From assembly GCA_025174535.1 (NCBI GenBank), contig JALBUN010000034.1, positions 33,501 to 97,500 on the forward strand: a DNA stretch of 64,000 nt, given 5' to 3'. Below the pieces are notes generated by a model, which worked only from the letters and a program-made list of their open reading frames with translations, had not been told where the DNA came from and searched no databases. Shown here piece after piece: positions 4,281 through 56,699 of the stretch. The stretch's first letter is position 1. Every line of letters begins with the position of its first letter. A program made the translations under genes and the position numbers. The DNA is from Cantharellus purpuraceus (taxonomy: Eukaryota; Basidiomycota; Agaricomycetes; Cantharellales; Hydnaceae).

Positions 4281-4801
4281 TGTTATGTGTTATGACTATA
4301 TTCATTAACGCCCAGATCCCCGTCCAATCCCCTCAGATCCCCACGCACATGAAATCTATACTCCATTTGGAAACCGCTACGTCTCCATTTTCCTGTCCGA
4401 TTGTCACCGCTGATTCCACCCATCTGTCTCCGGTTCCGATTGATGCATCAGCATCACCATAGGAACCCAGACATCCGTCCCCATCAGACTCGGACATACT
4501 CATGTAAGGCCATCGGCCTCGGAGACCCATCACTGGAGTAATTATTATTAGATTTTGAATATGTATTTAAGTTGCCGACTGGGGACTCCATTCCCCAGTT
4601 TGAATATCGAATCACGCCTAGCTCCTAAGTCCGATCCTAACTCTGTAAGTCGTACTCCATCTCTGAAATCTCGGACACCAGTATTAGTGAGGGTGCAGCA
4701 CATAAGCTGAAGCCAAGTCCGTTCCGACCCCCACGACGTACTCCGACTCTGACCCAACCTCCGACCCAATCTCCGACCCCAATCAGACCTAGTGCGTAAC
4801 A
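4281..4801 (+). mobile_element. LTR-C, first unit of a head-to-tail LTR dimer
   Basis: It begins TGTTATGTGTTATGACT (a small TGTTATG duplication) and ends AGTGCGTAACA. A second LTR-C follows directly at 4802 without an internal region. The pair shares one TSD, TTTCC, at 4276-4280 and 7858-7862. Confidence 0.85.
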
Positions 4802-6024: not shown

Positions 6025-6360
6025 TCACCCATCCGTCTCCAGTTCTGATTGATGCATTAGCATCACCATAGGAACCCAGACATCCATCCCCATCAGACTC
6101 GGACATACTCATGTAAGGCCATCAGCCTCAGAGACCCATCACCAGAGTAATTATTATTAGATTTAAAATATGTATTTAAGCTGCCCAACTGGGGACTTCA
6201 TCCCCAGTTCAAATATCGAATCATGCCTAGTTCCTAAGTCTGATCCTAACTATCTAAGTCGTGCTCTGTCTCCAAAATCTTGGACACCAGTATTAGTGAG
6301 GGCACAGCACATAAGCTGAAGCCAAGTCCATCCCAACCCCCACAACATACCCCAACTCCC
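6025..6360 (+). mobile_element. LTR-C, second unit of dimer, part 2
   Basis: It resumes with TCACCCATCCGTCTCC after the LTR-A insertion and is cut again at 6360 by a second LTR-A with TSD CTCCC (6356-6360). It matches LTR-C consensus blocks such as GATGCATTAGCATCACC. Confidence 0.85.
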
Positions 6361-8201: not shown

Positions 8202-8637
8202 TGTCCCCTCACTCCCACTGTCTAATAGACAGTGAGCAAGAGTCCTACCAATCTCCCAGAATCCAGAGATTGTTTATTATTGATGCATGGCCTATCAGGC
8301 TGTGCCATTGACTTCTGTCAGCTTCTATGATTATACATAGGTTTGGCCAACCTGTCAACACTGATAGCAGCTACATGCAGCTGTTGTGATTCCCTGCTTA
8401 TTGGGGATCCTTTTGCATTACAGAAACACACCACATATGTGTTTTGGTGGGATTTGATCATTGGGTCAAATCCATATCACATTAGAGCAATACATTGGCA
8501 TTGCCTCCTCTTCAGGGGCATCATTCTGATCATCTCATTCATATGGGGTGATCCCTTCATTCCATTCATCAGCTACATGGCACTTTCTCCTCTAGATGGT
8601 CCTGTTCTCCCTCTATCAGGGAGAACTCATCTACATT
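8202..8637 (-). pseudogene. Gyp2 post-gag / protease fragment (hairpin-rich)
   Basis: On the minus strand this encodes gypsy polyprotein sequence running into a retroviral-type aspartic protease: near 8215-8245 the frame reads AHCLLDSGSEG, whose DSG is the catalytic triad. Upstream text such as QSHQNTYVVCFCNAKGSP and QLHVAAISVD is typical of gag-protease linkers. Stops and shifts are present, so it is dead. It is cut at 8201 by the LTR-A remnant and joins, after two MITEs, to the gag piece at 9782. Several perfect hairpins lie in it, for example 8216-8234 and 8604-8626. Confidence 0.7.
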
Positions 8638-8638
8638 G

Positions 8639-9201
8639 ACACTTGTTCAGAAATACAACAAATATGTATATACAACCTATTTTCCTCAAATTTCACACAA
8701 TACACTTCAATTCAAACTTATTTTCATATTTCAACATGATTCTCAAATTTTACACAATATACTAGATTAAAACATATTGTGATATTTTGGCATAATTCTC
8801 AAAAATAACTGTTCCTTCCCCATTTAGTGGTGGCAACTCTCTTGAGGGAACATCCAAATATCATTGATTCTTTCTTATACAATACTTGTAACATAATTTG
8901 AACTATCTTTAATCCCCACCTGGTATTTGTATATCTAAATATCCTATATAATACCAATTATATTAATACATACATTCCCATTATATCCATGTAAATGATT
9001 ATGTTCATCTCAACCAAATATCTCATCTTTTAAAGTTTATCAAAATATAGAATATATGTTTATATTTATGAAAATTTCACACATCCAAAATCTTTTAAGA
9101 TATCCAAATTGTAATTCCCTGGCTTTATGTATCATTGAAATTCTGATGTATATCTCATATACATCAGAATATTGTATACTGACATGATTCCAAACAAGTG
9201 T
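8639..9201 (+). mobile_element. MITE copy 1 (563 bp)
   Basis: Terminal inverted repeats are ACACTTGTTCAGAA and TTCCAAACAAGTGT, with TSD CATTG at 8634-8638 and 9202-9206. No coding capacity. A subterminal perfect palindrome, 14-bp arms ATTCTGATGTATAT around CTC, is at 9140-9170. AT-rich interior. Confidence 0.88.
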
Positions 9202-9218
9202 CATTGTCCTCTACTATG

Positions 9219-9781
9219 ACGCTTGTTCAGAAATACAACAAATACATATATACAACCTATTTTCCTCAAATTTTATACAATACACTTCAATTCAAACTTA
9301 TTTTCATATTTCAACATGATTCTCAAATTTTACACAATATACTAGATTAAAACATATTGTGATATTTTGGCATAATTCTTAAAAATAATTCTTTTTTCCC
9401 CATTTAGTGGTGGCAACTCCCTTGAGGGAACATCCAAATATCATTGATTCTTTCTTATACAATACTATTAACATAATTTGCACTATCTTTAATCCCCACC
9501 TGGTATTTGTATATCTAAATACCCTATATAATACCAATTATATTAATACATACATTCCTATTATATCCATGTAAATGATTATGTTCATCTCAACCAAATA
9601 TCTCATCTTTTAAAGTTTATTAAAATACAGAATATATGTTTATATTTATGAAAATTTCACACATCCGAAATCTTTTAAGATATCCAAATTGTAACTCCCT
9701 GGCTTTATGTATCATTGAAATCCTGATGTATATCTCCTATACATCAGAATATTGTATACTGACATGATTCCGAACAAGCGT
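9219..9781 (+). mobile_element. MITE copy 2 (563 bp)
   Basis: Inverted repeats ACGCTTGTTCAGAA and TTCCGAACAAGCGT, TSD CTATG at 9214-9218 and 9782-9786. Same length and nearly the same sequence as copy 1, from which only 17 bases of Gyp2 separate it. Two independent TSDs show two insertions rather than one duplication. Confidence 0.88.
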
Positions 9782-10241
9782 CTATGTGTGAGGACACATC
9801 CTTTCAGACTGCAGTGGACCTTACATTGCCCTTTAATTTGGGGTAGCTAGGTTGCATGTGACCTGTCTGGCCACACTCATAGCACACAATATTACTAGTA
9901 ATGTTGTTAGGTTGATCACCACCTACATGAGTTGGTGGTTTCAATTGGTAATTACCCTTAGGGGGGCAATTGTTAGGATTAAATCTGGAGCCACTACTAT
10001 GGGGTTCTGGCCTTGGCACACTCACTTGTCATGAGTGCATATTAGGAGCCATGTACACACATCCATGGGGCATGTGTTGGCTTCCTGCGCTTGTTACACC
10101 AGTAGCTCTATGGACTACTGGTCTATGGGCTGAGGAGGATGCATTCATCGTGTTCTCTGGGCATCACATACCATGATGGTATCATGTCGCCTCTTCTATC
10201 TTTCAAGCAGTCTCATATAACTGCTTGATGCTGCTAAATTC
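9782..10241 (-). pseudogene. Gyp2 gag C-terminal piece with zinc knuckle
   Basis: On the minus strand the frame reads EFSSIKQLYETA, then a Pro/Asn-rich linker, then CYECGQTGHMQPSYP near 9845-9895. This is a CCHC knuckle (CX2CX4HX4C) whose last Cys is now Tyr. It continues the gag core at 11010-11559 once the LTR-B insertion (TSD AATTC) is removed. In-frame stops show decay. Perfect hairpins include 10068-10082, 10099-10121 and 10204-10227. Confidence 0.75.
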
Positions 10242-11009
10242 TGTTGTTCCAGCTGCTGGACGTCTAGCTGCCGGACTTCTGGGGAGAAGGGAGAGGAGAG
10301 GGGGATTACAGGGGACAGGGGGGGGAACAGGAGCATATAGGAGGCTCAGGAGGTTTTGAGGGACAAAGGGGGTAAAGGAGGACGGTTACAGGAATGGAAT
10401 AGGGAACAGGAGAAGCCCCTGTGAGTTCCAGAACTTCCTGGACATTATTTTCACTTTTATTTTCATCATTTCATCATCATGGACACTTCCCCCCATCATC
10501 ATCTCATCATCCATCCCATCATTGACTCAGGACATTTACGAATGACTTCACTCATTCATAGGACTTAGTATCATATATAAATCACATCTGTAATGCACTT
10601 GAATAGACTAGAGAATTTCCTCTCACCTGTTTCTGTCTGTGTGTCTGAATCTATTCGTATCTGGAATATCTCCAGAACGAACGCGTATTTCTATTAGCTT
10701 TTGCATATTCTATTAGAATATTGCATATCCAACTCGAATCTCGAATTACGAAGCCATACAATAACTGGCTATTTTTCTATTAAGCATTTACTCTCATTCG
10801 AGTCATCTGCTCCTGATCCCTGCTCAAATTGTCAATATCTAGACGAAGATCACACCAAATCCCATCAAACTTCGTAGGAAGATACTACTCAAGTATATCT
10901 TCAATTCGACTACGCATACATCCAGTTCCCACTACTGCTCCACTTTCTATTCGACTTCTGCTCGTCACTACACTCCAGCAAAGCAATTATTTACATTATT
11001 CAAATAACA
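10242..11009 (-). mobile_element. LTR-B solo LTR (768 bp, divergent subfamily)
   Basis: On the minus strand it runs TGTTATTTGAATAATG...GGAACAACA. TSD AATTC is at 10237-10241 and 11010-11014. It aligns in order with LTR-B at 3587 and 60703 (shared CTAGATATTGACA, GCTTAATAGAAA and AGGAGCATATAGGAGG blocks) but retains far more CpG. It splits the Gyp2 gag, and the frame closes when it is removed. Confidence 0.88.
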
Positions 11010-11559
11010 AATTCAGCATTGAAGCCCTTTTTGAGGACTTCTTGTCTCAAAGGTTCACACATTGCAGTCACAAACCTCTTCCTGAATGTGTATGCATCTG
11101 GCAGCATTATCATGCAACACACATACTTATCTAGGTTGTTCATTAATTTGTGAACGGTCCTTTGACTCTGCATTACAGAGTCAAACTTATTTGACACATG
11201 ATGATGTATCAGCGTGTGTAGGAATCTACACTGCAATCCTTGGATTGCAGTTTCCAGGGTCCAGTCTTGAACTATCCTGTTGTAGTGTTCTACATTTCTG
11301 CAGAACCATTCCTGGGCCTCGCCTTTAAGGTGAGTACCTAAGTACAATAGTTGAAACTTTGTACTTGATGGCCCAAGAAGATTATTCATCTTCAGCCATT
11401 GTAGCATCCCTGCTACAAAGATCTTGAACTCTTCAAGATCTGCACCTCCTGAGTATTGCTCAGGGGGTGACACCTTTATGCCAGCTTTGGCAAGTACAGA
11501 CTTCTCTGGGTCTGTATCTTTGTTATCAACTATGGCTACTTGTACCATGCAAGTAATGC
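11010..11559 (-). pseudogene. Gyp2 gag core (retrotransposon gag domain)
   Basis: This is an open minus-strand frame of about 180 codons with the Ty3/gypsy capsid pattern: ISPPEQYSGG-like entry (KVSPPEQYSGGADLEEF), YLGTHLKGEAQEWF in the middle, then DSVMQSQRTVHKL and FVTAMCEPLRQEVLKKGFNA. It would form the virus-like particle shell. It is the best preserved part of Gyp2. Its 5' neighbour lies at 21682, because Gyp1 (TSD TGTCA) is inserted at 11564/11565. The coding sequence is packed with perfect hairpins at 11161-11185, 11230-11251, 11377-11393, 11399-11418, 11419-11441 and 11448-11464. Confidence 0.85.
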
Positions 11560-11564
11560 TGTCA

Positions 11565-12089
11565 TGTTACGCACTAGGTCCGATTGGGGGTCAGAGATTG
11601 GGTTGGAGTTTGGGTTGGAGGTTGGGTTGGAGTCGGAGCACATCGTGGGAGTTGGGATGGACTTGGCTTCAGCTTATGTGCTGCGCCCTCACTAATACCA
11701 GTGTCCGAGATTTCAGAGACGGAGTATGACTTAGAGAGTTAGGATCAGACTTAGGAACTAGGCGTGATTCGATATTCGAACTGGGGAATGAAGTCACCAG
11801 TTGGGCAACTTAAATACATATTTTGAAATCTAATAATAATTACTCCGGTGATGGGTCTCTGAGGCCGACGGCCTTACATGAGTATGTCTGAGTCTGATGG
11901 GGATGGGTGTCTGGGTTCCTATGGTGATGCTGATGCATCAATTGGAACCGGAGATGGATGGGCGGAATCAGCAGTGACGATCAGACAGGGAGATGGAGAC
12001 AGTGGTTTCCAAATGGAGTATAGATTTCATGTGCGGGGATCTGAGTGGATCGGATGGGGATCTGGACGTTAATGAATATAGTCATAACA
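11565..12089 (-). repeat. Gyp1 3' LTR (LTR-C)
   Basis: 525 bp, TGTTACGCACTAGG...AGTCATAACA on the + strand. It is nearly identical to the 5' LTR at 21155 and carries the purine tract just inside it, as expected for the 3' LTR of a minus-strand element. Confidence 0.92.
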
Positions 12090-14705: not shown

Positions 14706-15268
14706 ACGCTTGTTCAGAAATACAACAAATACGTATATACAACCTATTTTCCTCAAATTTTATACAATACACTTCAATTCAAACTTATTTTCATATTTCA
14801 ACATGATTCTCAAATTTTACACAATATACTAGATTAAAACATATTGTGATATTTTGGCATAATTCTCAAAAATAATTGTTTTTTCCCCATTTAGTGGTGG
14901 CAACTCTCTTGAAGGAACATCCAAATATCATTGATTCTTTCTTATACAATACTTGTAACATAATTTGAACTATCTTTAATCCCCACCTGGTATTTGTATA
15001 TCTAAATACCCTATATAATACCAATTATATTAATACAGACATTCCTATTATATCCATGTAAATGATTATGTTCATCTCAACCAAATATCTCATCTTTTAA
15101 AGTTTATTAAAATATAGAATATATGTTTATATTTATGAAAATTTCACACATCTGAAATCTTTCAAGATATCCAAATTATAACTCCCTGGCTTTATGTATC
15201 ATTGAAATTCTGATGTATATCTCATATACATCAGAATATTGTATACTGACATGATTCCGAACAAGCGT
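14706..15268 (+). mobile_element. MITE copy 3 (563 bp)
   Basis: Inverted repeats ACGCTTGTTCAGAA and TTCCGAACAAGCGT, flanked by GCTAG (14701-14705) and CCTAG (15269-15273). The uninterrupted paralogue at 1104-1112 reads CACTAGGTC on its coding strand, which confirms a single target copy before insertion and a 5-bp TSD with one later change. Confidence 0.9.
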
Positions 15269-16149: not shown

Positions 16150-19100
16150 AGCATTAGTAATTGAACTTAAAGATTCATAAGGGGGCCAGGTTTGTCTGGA
16201 TAAGCGGAGTGAAAGTCGGAGACAGATTCAGATGTGTGATCGAGTTTGGACACAGAGATCCATGAGGACTCTTCATCGGTGCCTTCGTACCCAGTCCATT
16301 TGACTAAGTACTGGAGCTTGCACTTGTATCAACAGTCAAGTCCAGGATCTCAGAGATCTCATATTTGTTGTCTCCTTCGATGATGATCAGGGGAGGTGGG
16401 GGTTGCATGTGACTGGAGATCTCATTCGTGGTAGTGGGTTCGAGCATTGATATATGGAAGACCGGATGAACTGCTCAGAAGTGGTCCAGGAGGTGGAGGG
16501 TGAAGGACCTGCTGCCTGCACAAGCAATGACCTCATAAGGACCTAAGTACTTCTCAGAGAGTTTCTTTGATGGGCGGGTGGTCCGGAAGTGTTTGGCCTT
16601 AACGAATACTTTGTCTCCAATTTGCAGGTTCAGAGCCAGAATGTGGTGTCGGTCTGCGGAGACTTGATATTGTTTCTGGGCATCGGAGATGGTCTCTTGG
16701 AGATGTTGGTGTAGTTCATTGAGGTCGGTTACGAATTGGTGGGCTTTGGTGGAGGCAAGTTCTTTCTCAGATGGTAGCCTTTATTAGCAAGAATGGAGAG
16801 ATGCCAGTAGTCACGTTCAGAGCGTTGTTGTAGGCAAACTCTGTGATCGGAAGTAGATCAGCCCAGTTGTCTTGTTGATAGTTACAATAGACTCAGAGAT
16901 ATTGTTCCAGGGACTGATTCATTTGTTCCATTTGTCCATCTCCTTCAGGATGGTATCCAGAGGTGAAGTGAAGTTTCATGTCAAGAGCCTTTCCTAGTGT
17001 GCAGAAGAAGGAGGACACGAACTCTGAGCCCCGATCGGATGTGACATGCGATGGGACTCCGTGTTTAGAGAATATGTGGAGAACGAACAATTTGGCTAGC
17101 GAGGTGGAGGTGATGGTGTCATGCGTCAGAATGAATAGTGACTGTTTGGTGAACCTGTCAACAATCACAAGTATGGTGTCGTATCCGAGTGATGGGGGGA
17201 GCTTCTCTATGAAATCCATGGAGATGGAGTTCCATGGTTGCTCTGGGATCGGAAGTTGCTTAAGCGTTCTGTAGGGTTTGTGCCTTTGCGATTTTGAGCA
17301 CATACATGTGGTGCAGGAGTTACAGTAGTGTTGAATGTATTCCCGCATTTTTGGCCATACATAGTCTCATTGGATTAATCCTTGTGTGTGATTTTGCCTG
17401 AAGTGGCCGGAGATTGGGTGATCATGATAATACTGCAAAACTCAGAGTCAGAGGCCGTTGGCGTCAGGGACGTATATCTGGTTGTTGTGTCGGAGGTGTC
17501 CTTCGGGGTCAAGTGCCCACTTTGGATCGGAAGGGTTGTCCAAGTGTTTCACTGCAACAGGATCAGATCGGAGAGATGAGCGGATGTTGGGGTGGAGTTG
17601 GTCAATGTCCATAATGGTGACAGCTTGGAGGGTGGGAGTCATGAGGGTGGATGCTTGTAGGGACGATGCCAGCTGCTCGTTGGTGAACACAGGACAAAAG
17701 TTGTGTGGGTTTACAGTGGCGTAGTCGCTATTCCCCTCTTTAGGGTAGACATCCCAGTGTCTAGTTAATGCATTGGGCTTTGCTCCGAGTCAACCAGGAT
17801 GGAAACAGATAATGAGATTGAACTGAGACAGGTATTCAGACCATCAGACTTGTCTCCAGGTGAGTAGTTTCATTGTGGAGAAGTATTCCAAGTTCTTGTG
17901 GTCGGTTATGACGTCCACCGGATCGGAGGGACCTTCAAGGTAGTGTCTCCATATCCGGAAGGCTTCATATATGGCAAGGAGTTCTTTGTCATGGACATCA
18001 TAGTTCAGTTTGGGGGGCGTAAATGTACGTGAGTGAAAAGTGATCAGGTGGACTTGTCCGTCATCTGGAGAGATGATGGACAGGATCACGGCAAGTGCAT
18101 AGTCAGAGGTGTCGGTCTCTAATAGGATAGGAACATCTGGAACCCAATGAGTCAGTATTGGAGCGGAAGTAAAGGCCTTCTTCAAGGTCTCAAAGCTCTG
18201 TCTACATTCATCAGTGAAATTCCATTGGGTACCCTTCCTAGTGAGTCGGGTGAGCGGAACGGTGATATCGGAGTAGCCGTGAATGAAGCGGCACTAGAAG
18301 TTGGTGAACCCTAGGAAGGACTGTATGTCCTTGATTTTCCAGGGTTCTGGCCATTCCTGTATGGCTTTGATTTTGTCATCAGACATTGTCAATCCTGTCA
18401 GGGAGAGGATATACCCTAGGTATTCAACCAAGTTGGAGTGGAATTCGCGTTTGTCAGCACAGGTGAAGAGGCCATGCTTTCAGAGACGTCAGAGTACCTC
18501 TCAGACATGTGTCCGATGTTCTTCTTCATTGTCTGAATATACCAGAATGTCGTCTAAGTAAATGAGGATGGTCACATCGAGGAGGTCGGCAAAGGTATCA
18601 TTCATGAACCTCTGGAAGGTGGCCAGCACATTGGTTAGTCCGAAGGGCATGACGCACCACTCGAAAGATCCATATCATGTGCGGAAGGTCGTTTTCCATT
18701 CGTCACCTTCTTGGATGCGGACTAGATGGTAGGCATGTTGGAGATCTATTTTGGAATAGATCTTAGCCTTTTGAGGACTCTCAAGTAGGTCCGCGGTGCA
18801 GGGTATCGGGTATCGGTCTTTCTTGGTGATCTTGTTAAGTCCACAGAAGTCGACGCATAGATGGAGTGATCTGTCTTTTTTGCAGACAAATAGGACCGGA
18901 GCTCCATGAGGAGATAGGGATGGGCAGATGAAGCCCATGGCCAAGTTCTCATCTATGAATGTTCGGAGAGCCAGTAGCTCTTTTTGGGATAGCAAGTAAA
19001 TAGGGCCAAGTGGAGGGGTGGAGTTGTCATCCAGTTTGATCTTGAGATCGTATGGTCAGTGTTCCGCTAGAGAGTCAGCTTTAGACTTGCTGAACATGTC

Positions 19101-19990
19101 AGTGAACTCATGATACTCCTTGGGAACCATAGAGAGGTCCGGTGGAGTTGATCGGGTGGAACGAGTGGCAAGGAATATTGGATCAGAGAGGTGGACCTGG
19201 AATGTGTGAGAGCCATCCAGTTTGCTTAGTCTGGCGAAGACCATAGCGTCCACCATCAATATAAATGGAGGGGTAGACGGAGTATCTATCAGAGCGGAGT
19301 CAGCAGAGGCGGAAGATAATTTCACACCTATAGTTGCTGGTGACGTCAGGGATGACACAGCCTGTGCTGGAGAATGGAATGTGATATGGCCCAATGCCCA
19401 GTCAATCAACGGATTGTAGTGGGTGAGCCAGTTATGTCCAAGAACCACAGAACAGCTGGAGTCAAGCGGAGTAACATAGAATGTAAGGGTCTGGATTTCT
19501 CTGACAGAAAAACGGATAGACAGATCTATAGCTCGTGAAATAACAGCATTAGTAGTGCCATCATAATTGGAGTGGTATCGGAGTTATGGTGTATGTATGG
19601 AGTTTATGTAAATCGGAAAAAAAGGAATTGAGGAAACAGTGAGTAGAACCGGAGTCAATTAACACTTGAATAGCAGTATCAGGAATGGAGTCAGAGTGGA
19701 TGAGGAGGGTAAGGGAGTCGGAGTGGACGAGGAGGGTAAGGGAGTCAGAGTGGATGAGGAGGGTAAGGGAGTCGGAGTGGACGAGGAGGGTAAGGGAGTC
19801 AGAGTGGATGAGGAGGGTAAGGGAGTCGGAGTGGACGAGGAGGGTAAGGGAGTCAGAGTGGATGAGGAGGGTAAGGGAGTCGGAGTGGGAAAGAGCGGAT
19901 GCGTTCAGGCAGACCTTGCCTGTTGTATGGGGAGTACCAATGCAGCCCTCAGCCCGTACGGAGGCTATAGGACTGCTTACTATTTTTTTT
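16150..19990 (-). pseudogene. Gyp1 pol: protease, RT, RNase H, integrase, chromodomain
   Basis: Minus strand, in order: protease with VLIDSGSTHCFLNS (about 19620-19670); RT with fingers [20 protein letters not shown] and catalytic YLDDI (about 18560); RNase H (LLETDTSDYALA, with ITDHKNLEYF); zinc-binding and core integrase (YCNSCTTCMCSKSQ; DFIEKLPPS; TSDRGSEFVS); and a C-terminal chromodomain (LQYLVKWTGYEGTDEESSW, 16270-16325), which defines chromoviruses and can target chromatin. Several frames are closed by TGA where relatives have Arg (for example before YGSFEW and WSEYL), consistent with CGA to TGA change. A small deletion near 19560 shifts the frame after the protease, and the chromodomain has another shift. 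Confidence 0.9.
19680..19905 (-). repeat. 27-bp tandem repeat (8 units) upstream of protease
   Basis: Alternating units GGAGTCAGAGTGGATGAGGA and GGAGTCGGAGTGGACGAGGA (each plus GGGTAAG) give a 54-bp higher-order period. In the pol frame they encode about eight copies of the nonapeptide HSDSLTLLV/I, ending just before the DSG protease motif. Array length is probably variable between copies. Confidence 0.85.
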
Positions 19991-21122
19991 GGTCCATCGC
20001 TTTAGCGTCGGACTTGTCCGTTGTGGCGTTGGCGGTGTGGCCCTTTGCCTTTGCTGCAGATGAGGTTGCCTTGTTGCAATCCTTGGCTTGGTGACCAGGC
20101 TTTCCACAGAACAGACAGAGGTTGTTGTCCATGCGGCGCTGGCGTTCCTGCTGGGTGAGTTTTCCATCCTTTCCCAGCTTGGTGGAGAGGTCCGGAGTAC
20201 CCTTGCAAGCTCTGGAGTTATTGCTGGTGCCGGAATTGTTCTGACTGGAACCAGAAGTGGCAGCGTTACCAGTGTTTGACTTCTGGCCTGAGTTGGCAGT
20301 GGCCCGCTTATCGGAGCCCTTGTTGGACTTTGGGGTCTTGTCCGATGATTTGTCTGATTTGTTATTAGCCGAGTTCTCACGGGAGACCTCAGATTGACGT
20401 TCCCAATAACGGGTGTCGATGGATTGGGCGAGCTTGCAGAGGGTAGACAAAGTATCCGGCTTACCGACGTGTGATATCTCGTCCTTGATGCGGGATGGGA
20501 GTCCGACATAAAATTGGCATCGGAGTGTGGCGTCACCCCATTGGACTTTTGGAGCTAGCTGCTGGAAACTCACAATGTATTTTGCGATTTTGTGATTTTC
20601 CTTCATCCAAAGTTGATCGAGTTCATTCTCGGCATTGGCCTCGGGGTTATAAGGACCAAAAGTGGTCCGAAGTTTGGAGATGAAGTCGGAGTAGTCCTCT
20701 GACCATATTGGGTCATTGGAGTCGTCCATGAGTGCTGGCTCAAAGTAGTCCAGTGCGGTGCCCTTGAGATAGGACATGGCGAAGGTGACCTTCGCCCGAT
20801 CGGATGTGAATGCATCGGGGCGGTCATAGAAATTCAACTGGCATTGCACCAAGAACGGCTGGAGCCTTCGTGGATCGGAGCCATCGAATGGATCAGGTTC
20901 TCGGACCTTGGTCTGGGACTTAGGGGCTTGTGGGTTACGGATGCTGCTAGCGAGCAGGGAGATGGCTTGTGCCAGATTTGGAGAGGGCGGGGTGTCGTCT
21001 TCTTCATTGACAGCCTCTATGTGGTCCATTGGTTCTTCGACGACCTCGGGAATGGTGTCGATGCTGGGGGTGGGCACCTCGATGGTTCGTGCGTGTTCGG
21101 AATTGGCAGTGGATCATGGCAT
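19980..21122 (-). CDS. Gyp1 gag polyprotein
   Basis: This is the capsid/nucleocapsid protein of Gyp1. A near-intact frame of about 380 codons has the gypsy capsid pattern (DPFDGSDPRRLQPFLVQCQL, AKVTFAMSYLKGTALDYFEP, PYNPEANAENELDQLWM), a Ser/Asn/Lys-rich linker and one CCHC knuckle, CLFCGKPGHQAKDC (about 20085-20130). The ATG at 21122 fits the family start, but codon 3 is TGA (probably former CGA), so initiation would have to occur further in. The frame ends TAG right after an A8 run (19983-19990 on +), where a -1 shift enters the pol frame. The shadow frame on the opposite strand is not a gene. Confidence 0.88.
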
Positions 21123-21154: not shown

Positions 21155-21681
21155 TGTTACGCACTAGGTCCGATTGGGGGTTGGAGATTGGGTTGGAGTT
21201 CAGGTCGGAGGTTGGGTCAGAGTTGGAGCACGTCGTGGGGGTCAGGATGGACTTGGCTTCAGCTTATGTGCTGCACCCTCACTAATACCGGTGTCCGAGA
21301 TTTCAGAGACAGAGTATGACTTAGAGAGTTAGGATCGGACTTAGGAACTAGGTGTGATTCAATATTCAAACTGGGGAATGAAGTCCCCAGTCGGGCAACT
21401 TAAATACATATTTTGAAATCTAATAATAATTACTCCGGTGATGGGTCTCCGAGGCCGATGGCCTCGCATGAGTATGTCCGAGTCCGATGGGGATGGATGT
21501 CCAGATTCCTATGGTGATGCTGATGCATCAATTGGAACCGGAGATGGATGGGCGGAATCAGCAGTGACGATCAGACAGGGAGATGGAGACGGTGGTTTCC
21601 AAATGGAGTATAGATTTCATATGCGTGGGGATCTGAGTGGATCGGACGGGGATCTGGACGTTAATGAATATAGTCATAACA
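21155..21681 (-). repeat. Gyp1 5' LTR (LTR-C)
   Basis: 527 bp. On the minus strand it runs TGTTATGACTATATTC...GTGCGTAACA, followed by GTATATTCGAACTGCCA. No classical TGG-type tRNA primer site abuts it, so the priming mode is unclear. Confidence 0.92.
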
Positions 21682-22800
21682 TGTCAATAGGATCAATTGT
21701 GTCCAATTGATCCAGGATACCTTGGCCTTCTAAGGTCAATGGTGCTGACTGCTCCCTGTGATGGGGAATGTCTTCTTGAGGTACCCATTGGGTATCTCGC
21801 TGCTCATGGCAGGTGTCTCCTGAGAGACCCACTGCTTGTACACACTGATAACTGTTCAGTGTGTTTTGTGACTGTTGATTTAGATTGACGGTGACATTGA
21901 GCTCCTGTTGAGGCCACTGCTCTCTAAAGAGTTGGCCTAGCTCTTGTTCTGCATGTTTAGCCTTCTGTTTGAGGGCTGACCTGTGTTTGCGAGAAGCCTC
22001 AGCTTCTCACTGTTTCCATAGCTCAATCTCTTGATTGAGCTCCATTGATCTAGATTGGGGGGTTCCTCCTCAACCTGTATCGGTAATCTTTGCTTTACAG
22101 GGATTACTGGATCTCTGATTCCCTCCATTGGGGGAATCTCATTTCTTCTATCCAACCAATCACTCGGTTGGACTCTCTTGCTCTGGGGAGGTCTAGACTC
22201 TCTGGATTCAGATTCTTGATGAGAAATTTGATTGTTGGTGATGTGACTTGTATCACTCAGAGCTTTCTTGGAGTGATTATATCATTGTTCCCAGCTCTGT
22301 GATCTGCTGTCCCATATTGGTGGCAGCATGTTCTGCTATAGCAGCCATCTTGGCTGCCTGAGCACTAGCATCATTAATGCTCTTCATCTCATGCTGATTG
22401 CACATGAGTTGCTCAGTCAATCTTGTGATTGATGGGTGGGTTTCATGCCGCTCCATGCTGCATGATGCCCTGGTGGAAGTATTGCTACTTCTACTTGTGC
22501 TCATCTCTTGAGCACATTCCTTCTCTTTAGGAATGTTGAAGGCAGTTAATGACTGTCTCCTCCTTTCTTTTCTTATCAAAGAACCACTCAATGAGGGGTT
22601 CTTGTATGACAGACAATCTATTGTATGATCATCTGTGTGGTCTCACAACTGTGATGACTCTCTCCTAGAGTCTCCTTTATGAGAAGCACCTAGGACTTCT
22701 CTAGGATCTAGCTCCCCTTCATGGGACCTTCTACTGCTGGCTATGTGCCACCATTCATCGTTTATGATGTCCTGGGTGCTGCCAGTACAACTCATTCTGC
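21682..22800 (-). pseudogene. Gyp2 gag N-terminal region (hairpin-rich)
   Basis: On the minus strand a probable start at about 22797 reads MSCTGSTQDIINDEWWHIAS. After a stop come SGSLIRKERRRQSLTAFNIP, KECAQEMSTSRSSNTSTRAS and a helical part (ASAQAAKMAAIAEHAATNMG) before the sequence jumps across Gyp1 to 11559. Scattered stops show decay. Perfect hairpins are dense: 21690-21713 (10-bp stem), 21840-21864, 21991-22008, 22020-22041, 22341-22357, 22417-22432, 22476-22491, 22497-22515 and 22515-22535. Confidence 0.65.
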
Positions 22801-23265
22801 TTTGAGTCATCATTATGACGACTTCTTTTCTTCTACTAACTAAGTTAGTCTACTAGTTGCTCACTTGTGTGAGCAACTGGGGGGGTTGGTATATGTCTGT
22901 ACACCAGCAACAGCCAGTTTTCTAGCACTGGCTAGAAAACTTCAATAAAGAGGAAGAATCAACTGATTCTTCCCATGGAAGTTCAAAAATGTATAAGATT
23001 GGACTTGGTTCAGAACTCAACCAAAATAAATTGGTTGTGCTATGTGCAACAGTGGTGTGGTAAAATCTAAGTTACTCTAACTACATGTGGACCCACATGT
23101 ATACTTGGGTCCACCAATTATATAATAACTGTCTATATGCACCCCATGGGCACATATAGCTATCAAGAAGCAGCATTCCTTAAAGGAATGCTGTAGATAC
23201 AAATACAAGGATATATATATATAATATTTTACCACAAGTAAGTACCTAGGGTACTTACAAGCAGA
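22801..23265 (-). other. Gyp2 5' leader, packed with hairpins
   Basis: No protein-coding signal is seen. Perfect inverted repeats follow one another at 22835-22849, 22855-22878, 22916-22941 (11-bp stem), 22952-22973, 23019-23036, 23082-23101, 23171-23193 (11-bp stem) and 23238-23258. It precedes gag on the minus strand, so it would be the leader. The 5' LTR is not recognisable. Confidence 0.55.
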
Positions 23266-41815: not shown

Positions 41816-42323
41816 TGTTATGACTATATTCATTAACACTCTGATCCCCATGCACATGAAATCTATACTCCATTTGGAGACCATTACATCTCCATTTAGT
41901 CTGTCCAATTGTCACCATTGACCTTGCTCATCTGCCTCTGGTTCTGATTGATGCATCAGCATCACCATAGGAACCTGGACATCCATCCCCATCAGGCTTG
42001 GACATATTCATGTGAGGCAATTGGCCCCGGAGACCCATCACCAGAGTAACTATTATTAGATTTCAAATATGTATTTAAGTTGTGCGACTGGGGACTTCAT
42101 TCCCCAGTTTGAATATCAAATCACACCTAGTTCCTAAGTCTGATCTGAACTATCTAAGCCGTACTCCATCTCTGAAATCTCAGACACCAGTATTAGTGAG
42201 GGTGTGGCACATAAGCTGAAGCCAAGTCCATTCCAACCCCCATGACACACCCTGATCCCACTCCAACTCTGACCCCTGACTCTGATCCAAGTTCTGACCC
42301 TCAATCGGACCCAGTGCATAACA
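41816..42323 (+). mobile_element. LTR-C solo LTR (508 bp) in Cop1 gag
   Basis: TGTTATGACTATATTC...GTGCATAACA, perfect TSD CACTG at 41811-41815 and 42324-42328. It sits exactly at the left junction of LTR-E. Confidence 0.9.
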
Positions 42324-53473: not shown

Positions 53474-54001
53474 TGTTACACACTAGGTCCAATTGGGGGT
53501 TGGAGATTGGGTTGGAGATTGGGTTGGAGTTGGAGTGGGAATTGGGGTGCATTGTGGGGGTCGGAACGGACTTGGCTTCAGCTTATGTGCTGCACCCTCA
53601 CTAATACCTGTGTCTGAGATTTCAGAGATGGAGTACAACTTAGATAGTTAGGATCGGACTTAGGAACTAGGTGTTATTCAATATTGAACTGGGGAATGAA
53701 GTCCCCAGTTGGGCAACTTAAATACATATCTGAAATCTAATAATAATTACTCCAGTGATGGGTCTCCAAGGCCGATGGCCTTACATGAATATGTCTGAGT
53801 CTGATGGGGATGGATGTCCAGGTTCCTATGGGGATGCTGATGCATCAATCAGAACCGGAGATGGATGAGCAAGATTTGGCAGTGACAATTGGACAGATAA
53901 ATGGAGACGTGATGGTTTCCAAATGGAGTATAGATTTCATATGCGTGGGAATCTGAGTGGATCAGATGGGGATCTGGGCATTAATGAATATAGTCATAAC
54001 A
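53474..54001 (-). mobile_element. LTR-C solo LTR (528 bp)
   Basis: TGTTACACACTAGGTCC...AGTCATAACA on +, perfect TSD AGAAT at 53469-53473 and 54002-54006. Confidence 0.9.
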
Positions 54002-56191: not shown

Positions 56192-56699
56192 TGTTATGAC
56201 TATATTCATTAATGCCCAGATCCCCATGCACATGAAATCTATACTCCATTTGGAAACCATCATGTCTCCATTTATCTGTCTGATTGTCACCACTGATCTT
56301 GCTCATCCACCTCTGGTTCCAATTGATGCATCAGTATCACCATAGGAACCTGGACATCCATCCCCATCAGACTCAGACATATTCATGTAAGGCCATCGGC
56401 CTCAGAGACCCATCACCGGAGTAATTATTATTAGATTTCAAATATGTATTTAAGTTGCCCAACTGGGGACTTCATTCCCCAGTTCAAATATTGAATCACA
56501 CCTAGCTCCTAAGTCCGATCCTAACTATCTAAGTTGTACTCTGTCTCTGAAATCTCAGACACAGGTATTAGTGAGGGTGCAGCACATAAGCTGAAGCCAA
56601 GTCTGTTCCAACCCCCATGACGCACCCCAATTCCCACTCCAACTCTGACCGTCAACTCCGACCCAATCTCTGACCCCTAATCAGACCTAGTGCATAACA
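56192..56699 (+). mobile_element. LTR-C solo LTR (508 bp) in LTR-A
   Basis: TGTTATGACTATATTC...GTGCATAACA, TSD CAACC (56187-56191) and CAATC (56700-56704), one transition apart. Confidence 0.85.

Follow-up and report, generated by a model that had tools for sequence, protein, structure and literature searches.

Structure of the Gyp2 element

Gyp2 is a decayed, high-copy family of the Ty3/gypsy type whose sense lies on the minus strand of the window (the whole 64,000-nt stretch of DNA analysed here). The window retains the 5′ part of the element alone, in four pieces denoted A to D that total 3,030 nt when A is taken as 21682-23265 (Table 1). The preliminary description had joined these pieces after removing later insertions, and correctly so, because A, B, C and D adjoin in the same order in other copies (e.g. 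L020, L023, L029, L031, L036). Its placing of the end of Gyp2 at 23265 is not borne out: the element proper starts at 23259 with TGTAAGTACC, the 5′ end of an LTR of ~280 nt. Unrelated flanks abut the start of TGTAAGTACC in 11/11 copies inspected, drawn from 20 long loci, and the 5′ TG is sharp in each; further ~280-nt LTR copies occur, and the 3′ end is approximate. The 335 nt after the LTR are leader and probably also the start of gag.

Table 1. Gyp2 pieces and perfect hairpins in the window. Recurrence is the number of rows with a hairpin (stem ≥7 bp) at the same place, among 22 rows for piece A and 15 rows for piece B.
Feature	Position	Strand	Recurrence or remarks
Gyp2 piece A	21682-23259	-	5′ end: LTR, leader, N-terminal gag region; 11 hairpins (stem ≥8, loop ≤8)
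5′ LTR, ~270 nt, TG start	22990-23259	-	3′ boundary approximate, by eye from ~280-nt matches to LTR copies elsewhere
Gyp2 piece B, gag capsid region	11010-11559	-	within 188-aa open frame 11003-11566; 4 hairpins
Gyp2 piece C	9782-10241	-	1 hairpin in window; mean 2.0 per copy over 10 rows
Gyp2 piece D, last part within window	8202-8637	-	3 hairpins
Hairpin, stem 9 loop 3, right at LTR end	23238-23258		13/22 rows
Hairpin, stem 11 loop 1	23171-23193		10/22 rows
Hairpin, stem 9 loop 2	23082-23101		4/22 rows
Hairpin, stem 10 loop 2	22952-22973		22/22 rows
Hairpin, stem 11 loop 4	22916-22941		18/22 rows
Hairpin, stem 10 loop 4	22855-22878		7/22 rows
Hairpin, stem 9 loop 4	22020-22041		11/22 rows (stem ≥7); 4-nt loop exactly inverted in both copies of locus L030
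Hairpin, stem 10 loop 4	21690-21713		20/22 rows
Hairpin, stem 10 loop 3, in gag	11419-11441		7/15 rows
Hairpin, stem 10 loop 2, in gag	11230-11251		15/15 rows; central dinucleotide AA/TT swapped in 2/15
Hairpin, stem 10 loop 5, in gag	11161-11185		2/15 rows
Hairpin, stem 9 loop 5	8604-8626		scan of piece D
Hairpin, stem 9 loop 1	8216-8234		scan of piece D

Gyp2 shares several features with Ty3/gypsy LTR retrotransposons: the LTR starting with TG, a gag that resembles the Ty3 capsid, and a piece with a Tf2-1-like SH3 domain. Piece B resembles the capsid family PF19259 (E = 2.8e-6, 27.3 bits, just below the curated cut-off of 29.1), which is also found on several metagenome relatives. The Tf2-1-like SH3 domain of the integrase C-terminal region (PF24626, 32 bits against a cut-off of 30) is encoded by the L026 piece downstream of gag, and PF00665 is found on 3 of the 120 relatives listed. 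The RT/RNase H-like and integrase-like frames were recognised by eye only. At E ≤1e-10 the gag piece has 34 protein relatives and the integrase piece 582, the latter with up to 74% identity in other species. A search for DNA relatives in other species found none in viral_contigs or genome_contigs.

Gyp2 DNA is saturated with perfect hairpins

All 11 hairpins that the preliminary description reported in this DNA are perfect where it placed them (stems 9-11 bp, loops 1-5 nt), and two more that qualify had been missed (8216-8234, 22020-22041). The 3,030 nt thus hold 13 hairpins (stem ≥9, loop ≤5), whereas 200 dinucleotide shuffles average 0.14 and never exceed 2; the chance expectation of 0.05 given earlier was somewhat low. 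There are 19 hairpins with stem ≥8 and loop ≤8 (n = 200 shuffles, mean 0.35, maximum 3) and 29 with stem ≥7 and loop ≤8 (1.9 per shuffle, n = 200). The earlier spacing of one inverted repeat every 30-100 bases is generous, given 29 such stems in 3,030 nt, of which 9782-10241 holds 2.

Hairpin density (stem ≥8, loop ≤8) is 6.3/kb in Gyp2 versus 0.49/kb in the rest of the window (30 in 60,970 nt). Gyp1 (16400-21100) carries 2 in 4.7 kb, and the whole window holds 49 hairpins compared with 8, 11 and 14 in three shuffles. The neighbouring elements had been described as free of the pattern. The rest of the window itself lies somewhat above chance, partly because several hairpins there repeat one another. 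A search of Rfam at gathering scores revealed no family matching the window.

Hairpin saturation is a family trait

A search of the genome (40.15 Mb, 50 contigs) revealed at least 51 matching rows for piece A, some of them fragments of one copy, and 40 matching rows for piece B. Before counting, we merged identical copies and discarded those below set minimum lengths; the near-identical L026 and L027 both remain among the 22 piece A rows. Each of these 22 rows, which include the window's own, carries 7-15 hairpins (mean 10.64 vs 0.21 in shuffles). Mean counts in the other pieces are 3.47 for B (15 rows, shuffles 0.07), 2.00 for C (10 rows, shuffles 0.06) and 2.00 for D (11 rows, shuffles 0.06). 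The hairpins recur: 36/40 clusters in piece A and 12/12 in piece B are found in at least two rows (stem ≥7). Six downstream pieces taken from other copies carry 44 hairpins in 6 copies (P1, vs 0.5), 19 in 6 copies (P2, vs 0.4), 8 in 4 copies (P3, vs 0.6), 5 in 5 copies (P4, vs 0.1), 30 in 4 copies (P5, vs 0.5) and 15 in 2 copies (P6, vs 0.6). Hairpins therefore occur in the LTR, across gag, in the integrase region and past it.

We took 20 places among the piece A matches as long loci. In these, with L027 omitted, Gyp2-like DNA has 6.45 hairpins/kb (481 in 74,549 nt) and all else 0.81/kb (93 in 115,451 nt). Three loci chosen for low protein identity (L041-L043, 58-68%) are 83-91% alike Gyp2 in DNA over P3 and P4 and carry 6, 15 and 8 hairpins; they are ordinary decayed Gyp2 members. 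Of the 30 best matches to the integrase piece, 25 contain at least one in-frame stop, and 37/44 stops are TGA, as CGA-to-TGA decay would give.

Unlike Gyp2, sister Ty3/gypsy elements in the same genome carry few hairpins. Four sister loci of ~4.4 kb each, which share 43-45% identity with the integrase piece and may all belong to one family, carry 1, 2, 1 and 4 hairpins (0.4-0.6 expected). In L040, two of the 4 are the same hairpin, which turns up again in the window. The sisters do not quite reach background: the other three loci (L037-L039) together have 14 stems ≥7 at loops of 0-5 nt (vs 3.4) and 3 at loops of 6-12 nt (vs 6.4). Hairpin saturation is thus a real and strong trait of the family and is largely family-specific. 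The preliminary description had named equal density in shuffles, equal density in other elements and absence from other copies as grounds for rejecting the pattern, and none of the three was found.

Such a pattern might be an artefact of base composition, of the loss of CpG, of palindromic units that had been inserted or of a process that alters copies once they have integrated, and Gyp2 is strongly CpG-depleted (observed/expected 0.11 in piece A). Nevertheless, dinucleotide and synonymous shuffles abolish the signal, and two of the four sister loci, CpG-poor like Gyp2 (0.24), carry 1 and 2 hairpins vs ~0.5. Dispersed copies also have their hairpins in matching columns. At 57-72% identity, the alignment of the gag piece to protein relatives is nearly free of gaps, and we therefore rejected inserted units as the source of the hairpins in gag. 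With these shuffle, sister-locus, alignment and column controls an artefact is largely refuted, and we consider it very improbable.

Local folding, and its encoding by synonymous codons in two frames

The excess of inverted repeats lies mainly at loops of 0-12 nt. Observed and shuffled counts in piece A (stem ≥7) are 63/6.0 at loops of 0-2 nt, 188/6.0 at 3-5, 95/4.5 at 6-8 and 93/7.5 at 9-12, followed by 22/22.0 at 13-20, 46/22.0 at 21-30 and 34/40.0 at 31-50. Most of the structure thus resembles beads on a string, and an excess chiefly at such short loops is what local fold-back copying would predict. Outside piece A, the other pieces together show a modest excess at loops of 13-20 nt (32/12.5) and 31-50 nt (62/28.5) that local fold-back does not predict. 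Hairpin loop sizes are spread over 0-11 nt, and the tetraloop is not dominant, which also suits template switching.

In 200-nt windows all nine pieces fold below their shuffles, with mean z between -3.3 and -5.4 for the sense strand and between -2.7 and -5.8 for the antisense strand. The sisters average -0.5, Gyp1 -0.9, a stretch of host DNA -0.1 and another part of the window (48-54 kb) -1.6. The sense values are like that of phage MS2 (-4.2) and speak for selection of a highly structured genome, under which simple hairpins would have been advantageous in the genomic RNA or in both this RNA and its single-stranded cDNA. The benefit could lie in denser packing into particles, in protection against nucleases or RNA silencing, or in an effect on translation, and the hairpins would have been built through synonymous sites in the source lineage and would now be decaying in dead copies. 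We regard such selection as quite possible, while leaning against it. Stems that are mainly local and loop sizes that do not peak at four count against it.

Synonymous shuffles, which hold protein and codon usage constant, place the fold of the gag frame at z = -8.5 and that of an integrase-region frame of L026 at -5.2, compared with -0.9 to -1.7 for three frames of one sister locus and -2.5 for Gyp1 gag. In two open frames the hairpin excess thus resides in synonymous codon choice. The hairpins are a property of the nucleic acid and not of the protein, as had been proposed: shuffled sequences encoding the same protein lose them, and the noncoding LTR has them. Gag stem codons match those of 11 relatives in 65.9% of cases on average, compared with 65.7% for other codons (single relatives range from 79% vs 71% down to 38% vs 69% on 16 codons), and the gag hairpins were built at little protein cost. 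The synonymous encoding and this absence of visible cost accord with selection for structure; under template switching, overwriting of arms might cost amino acids, yet stem codons are as conserved as others.

Hairpin density varies along the element. It is 9.1/kb in the LTR, 10.7/kb in the next 335 nt and 4.5-6.4/kb in the remainder of piece A, and downstream it is approximately 10.9/kb in P1, 5.9 in P2, 3.4 in P3, 2.3 in P4, 8.5 in P5 and 7.4 in P6. The minimum falls in P3-P4, which we assigned to the integrase region by eye. This minimum and the high values in the LTR and just after it speak for template switching filtered by protein constraint, whereas the values of P1, P5 and P6 make the gradient with such constraint a loose one and count against it.

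CpG decay can mimic compensatory evolution

Copies of Gyp2 differ by apparent compensatory changes (e.g. CTCAATC/GATTGAG vs CTTGATC/GATCAAG), which at first looked convincing as proof of selected RNA structure. These changes are CA/TG vs TG/CA swaps, as expected from a CG/CG doublet decaying on either strand. We tested 28 paired CpG doublets, with L026 omitted from piece A, and found 183/328 cells complementary compared with 173.3 (sd 7.2) under random pairing of the same states; the pairs were drawn from hairpins perfect in at least two copies, a choice that leans towards complementary states. Since the changes fit chance CpG decay, we rejected them as proof of structure, and they support neither template switching nor selection. 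More generally, CpG decay can mimic compensatory evolution, as a randomly decaying paired CG/CG doublet appears compensated about half the time. The preliminary description had looked to both conserved positions and compensatory changes: the positions are indeed shared among family copies, but compensation is no more frequent than chance decay at CpG allows.

At non-CpG sites, shared variants affect 5.9% of stem and 7.6% of unpaired positions (P = 0.067), and singletons 12.1% and 12.3%. Stems are hardly less variable than unpaired sites, which weakens the case for selection of structure, as does a compensatory signal no greater than chance. No clear homogenisation of arms was seen between copies (10/545 non-CpG stem pairs have two Watson-Crick types), a point against template switching, and pair covariation and conservation do not significantly exceed chance among these decayed copies of one family. 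The hairpins look inherited from the source, with no sign of upkeep in present copies. Because dead copies cannot show selection, the results that go against structure selection bear mainly on the time after the family spread.

Strand tests and tetraloops

To separate RNA from DNA structure we compared G.U with A.C mismatches in stems. Fixed stem mismatches comprise 5 G.U, 7 A.C and 6 transversions, with no preference for G.U. Wobble-containing stems number 208 on the sense strand and 346 on the other (shuffles ~12 and ~17), and this excess of A.C over G.U largely follows composition. Piece B favours G.U (74 to 32 cells), and outside CpG context G.U is favoured in B (28 to 13), C (14 to 8) and D (13 to 1), with the opposite in piece A (122 G.U vs 180 A.C). 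The lack of an overall G.U preference counts against selection for RNA structure and suits template switching, though B, C and D lean to G.U outside CpG context.

The RNA of MS2 is selected for structure. Measured in the same way, MS2 is nearly symmetric (fold z -4.19 and -4.01 on the two strands; 20 and 20 wobble stems ≥7, 7 and 4 stems ≥9), and we therefore judged strand asymmetry indecisive as a test of RNA versus DNA. Strand symmetry is accordingly compatible with RNA selection. E. coli 16S and 23S rRNA give z = -0.66 and -1.23 on the sense strand and -0.57 and -0.13 on the other, and contain no perfect hairpins of 8 bp.

GNRA tetraloops are over-represented on the sense strand, with 4/15 at stem ≥8 (0.58 expected), 4/18 at stem ≥7 (0.69 expected) and 3/26 at stem ≥6 (1.0 expected); the antisense strand has 0. 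This slight excess is a hint in favour of RNA selection and against template switching.

Loop inversions and template switching

Template switching makes the two arms of a short inverted repeat alike and inverts its spacer, and in yeast spacer inversions mark intermolecular switching (PMC8604942). It can also generate perfect hairpins and keep them perfect, and loop inversions are counted among its patterns in RNA genes (PMC8794818). We searched for such footprints in 146 hairpin clusters, 114 of them with variable loops. In five clusters the loop of one copy is the reverse complement of that in another, compared with 1 complement-only (one of the same five) and 0 reverse-only cases over the 146 clusters. 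Two inversions are unambiguous: AAGA is changed to TCTT in both copies of locus L030, with AAGA in the 20 other rows, and an 11-nt unit is inverted in L036 (7 differences), where six other copies agree. The remaining three loops have mirror-symmetric cores (ATA/TAT, AA/TT, AGA/TCT), so that inversion is indistinguishable from complement. Among 34 dense substitution clusters with transversions, 4 match a local reverse complement, 0 a complement, 0 a reverse and 1 a direct copy; the 4 rows represent 2 hairpins, three of them concerning one.

Template switching had been suggested as a possible cause, and the loop inversions lend it some direct support. That switching also created the hairpins we infer. 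Loop inversions could follow from hairpins of other origin and could occur in host replication, and of the two unambiguous inversions one is confined to the pair of copies at locus L030 and the other to L036.

With these reservations, the account that we tentatively favour, at slightly below an even chance, is that the source element was made palindromic by template switches from one inverted-repeat arm to the other, probably during reverse transcription, with protein constraint as a filter. Before spreading, the Gyp2 source element would have acquired short, local, perfect inverted repeats along its whole length. A nascent strand may pair with its own or a complementary nearby inverted arm, copy that arm and return, a switch that would turn chance quasi-palindromes perfect and at times invert the loop. 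Protein constraint would filter the outcome, leaving mostly synonymous changes within genes. After insertion, copies would decay, largely at CpG, and nothing visible maintains the hairpins now. Reverse transcription is where we place the switching, since the pattern is weak or absent in the sisters and in other DNA of this host; reverse transcriptase would be the probable agent. Quasi-palindrome mutations increase in yeast lacking RNase H2 (PMC3820800), and by analogy RNA:DNA hybrids, which are intermediates of reverse transcription, may be an apt setting for them.

Both causes may also have acted, with template switching supplying perfect hairpins and RNA selection keeping the useful ones, as proposed for RNA genes (PMC8794818). 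Such a combination would join the loop inversions with the synonymous encoding and the GNRA hint, yet the data at hand show no sign of maintenance, and we think it unlikely. We thus rank template switching narrowly first, structure selection next and their combination third. In its strongest form the favoured account would make Gyp2 a self-palindromising mobile element. Its own reverse transcription would systematically convert the genome into perfect local palindromes, and a genome-wide fold, with an energy matching that of a single-stranded RNA phage, would arise from copying and not from function; we hold this stronger claim to be possible but doubtful.

Relation to known systems

Whether perfect stems in structured nucleic acids come from selection or from template switching is debated (PMC8794818, PMC6649704). 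A multi-copy family with dozens of decaying hairpins, beside nearly hairpin-free sisters in the same genome, makes this question of origin testable, and should reverse transcription prove responsible, it would act as a mutational force that shapes the synonymous sites of a coding genome. Among the literature matches listed (titles and abstract starts of open-licence papers), none describes a retroelement as hairpin-saturated.

The nearest parallels each share part of the pattern. Mitochondrial coding palindromes of Nematomorpha, for which template switching is offered as a possible cause, are likewise many perfect inverted repeats in protein genes with arms encoding conserved residues, but they reach 284 bp and are mitochondrial, whereas those of Gyp2 are 8-14 bp, very dense, and lie in a nuclear retroelement including its noncoding LTR (PMC6649704). 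Template-switch mutations in yeast coding DNA share arm identity, exact spacer inversion and short loops with Gyp2, but are isolated events in 39 genes, whereas here one element family is saturated (PMC8604942). Hairpins attributed to template switching in rRNA and other RNA genes share perfect stems and loop inversions; no mobile element is among the examples seen there, and the main text of that report contains no word beginning with "retro" (PMC8794818).

Like RNA viruses described as having genome-scale ordered RNA structure, and like MS2, Gyp2 has a fold energy far below shuffles. MS2, however, carries 0.84 perfect hairpins (stem ≥8) per kb compared with 6.45/kb in Gyp2-like DNA, and the few excess hairpins of MS2 fall at loops of 3-5, 13-20 and 31-50 nt (small counts), whereas the Gyp2 excess is mainly local.

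Loop composition and decay of Gyp2

Of 15 tetraloop clusters that recur in Gyp2 with a stem of at least 8, 4 carry a GNRA loop when read in the sense direction, compared with 0 in antisense; the numbers are small, and template switching alone does not account for these sense-strand loops. In the sister-element loci L037-L039, short-loop stems are weakly enriched (loops 0-5, stem of at least 7: 14 observed vs 3.4 in shuffles), which suggests that a hairpin tendency may be faintly present beyond Gyp2.

In-frame stops counted across the best 30 integrase matches among Gyp2 copies genome-wide are predominantly TGA (37/44), and CpG is nearly absent from the Gyp2 pieces of the window. Based on these two sequence signatures, the family looks methylated, with its decay due to deamination.

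Two loci from the same assembly, L026 and L027, share a Gyp2-containing stretch that is 99.96% alike over 2,500 nt on separate contigs, reflecting either a recent duplication or two haplotypes within the assembly. At a third, L030, only a few bases separate the two Gyp2 copies, and both contain the same inverted loop.

Hairpins outside Gyp2

The hairpin ACTGGGGACTTCATTCCCCAGT and its close variants occur multiple times in the window, in both orientations, and are probably a piece of a different repeated element or of its LTR. A hairpin with a 14-bp stem and its shorter variant are presumably the termini of the MITEs named in the preliminary description.

Coordinates of hairpins and Gyp2 loci
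Feature	Location	Position	Remark
ACTGGGGACTTCATTCCCCAGT-type hairpin	window	4578-4599, 6187-6209, 21370-21391, 42087-42108, 53687-53710, 56461-56484	
ACTGGGGACTTCATTCCCCAGT-type hairpin	sister locus L040	1571-1592, 2550-2571	L040 coordinates
14-bp-stem hairpin	window	9140-9170, 15207-15237	identical copies
Shorter variant of 14-bp-stem hairpin	window	9723-9747	
L026	G000:C2	about 383-393 kb	
L027	C12	about 935-944 kb	
L030	G000:C11	703122-706058	two Gyp2 copies, opposite orientation
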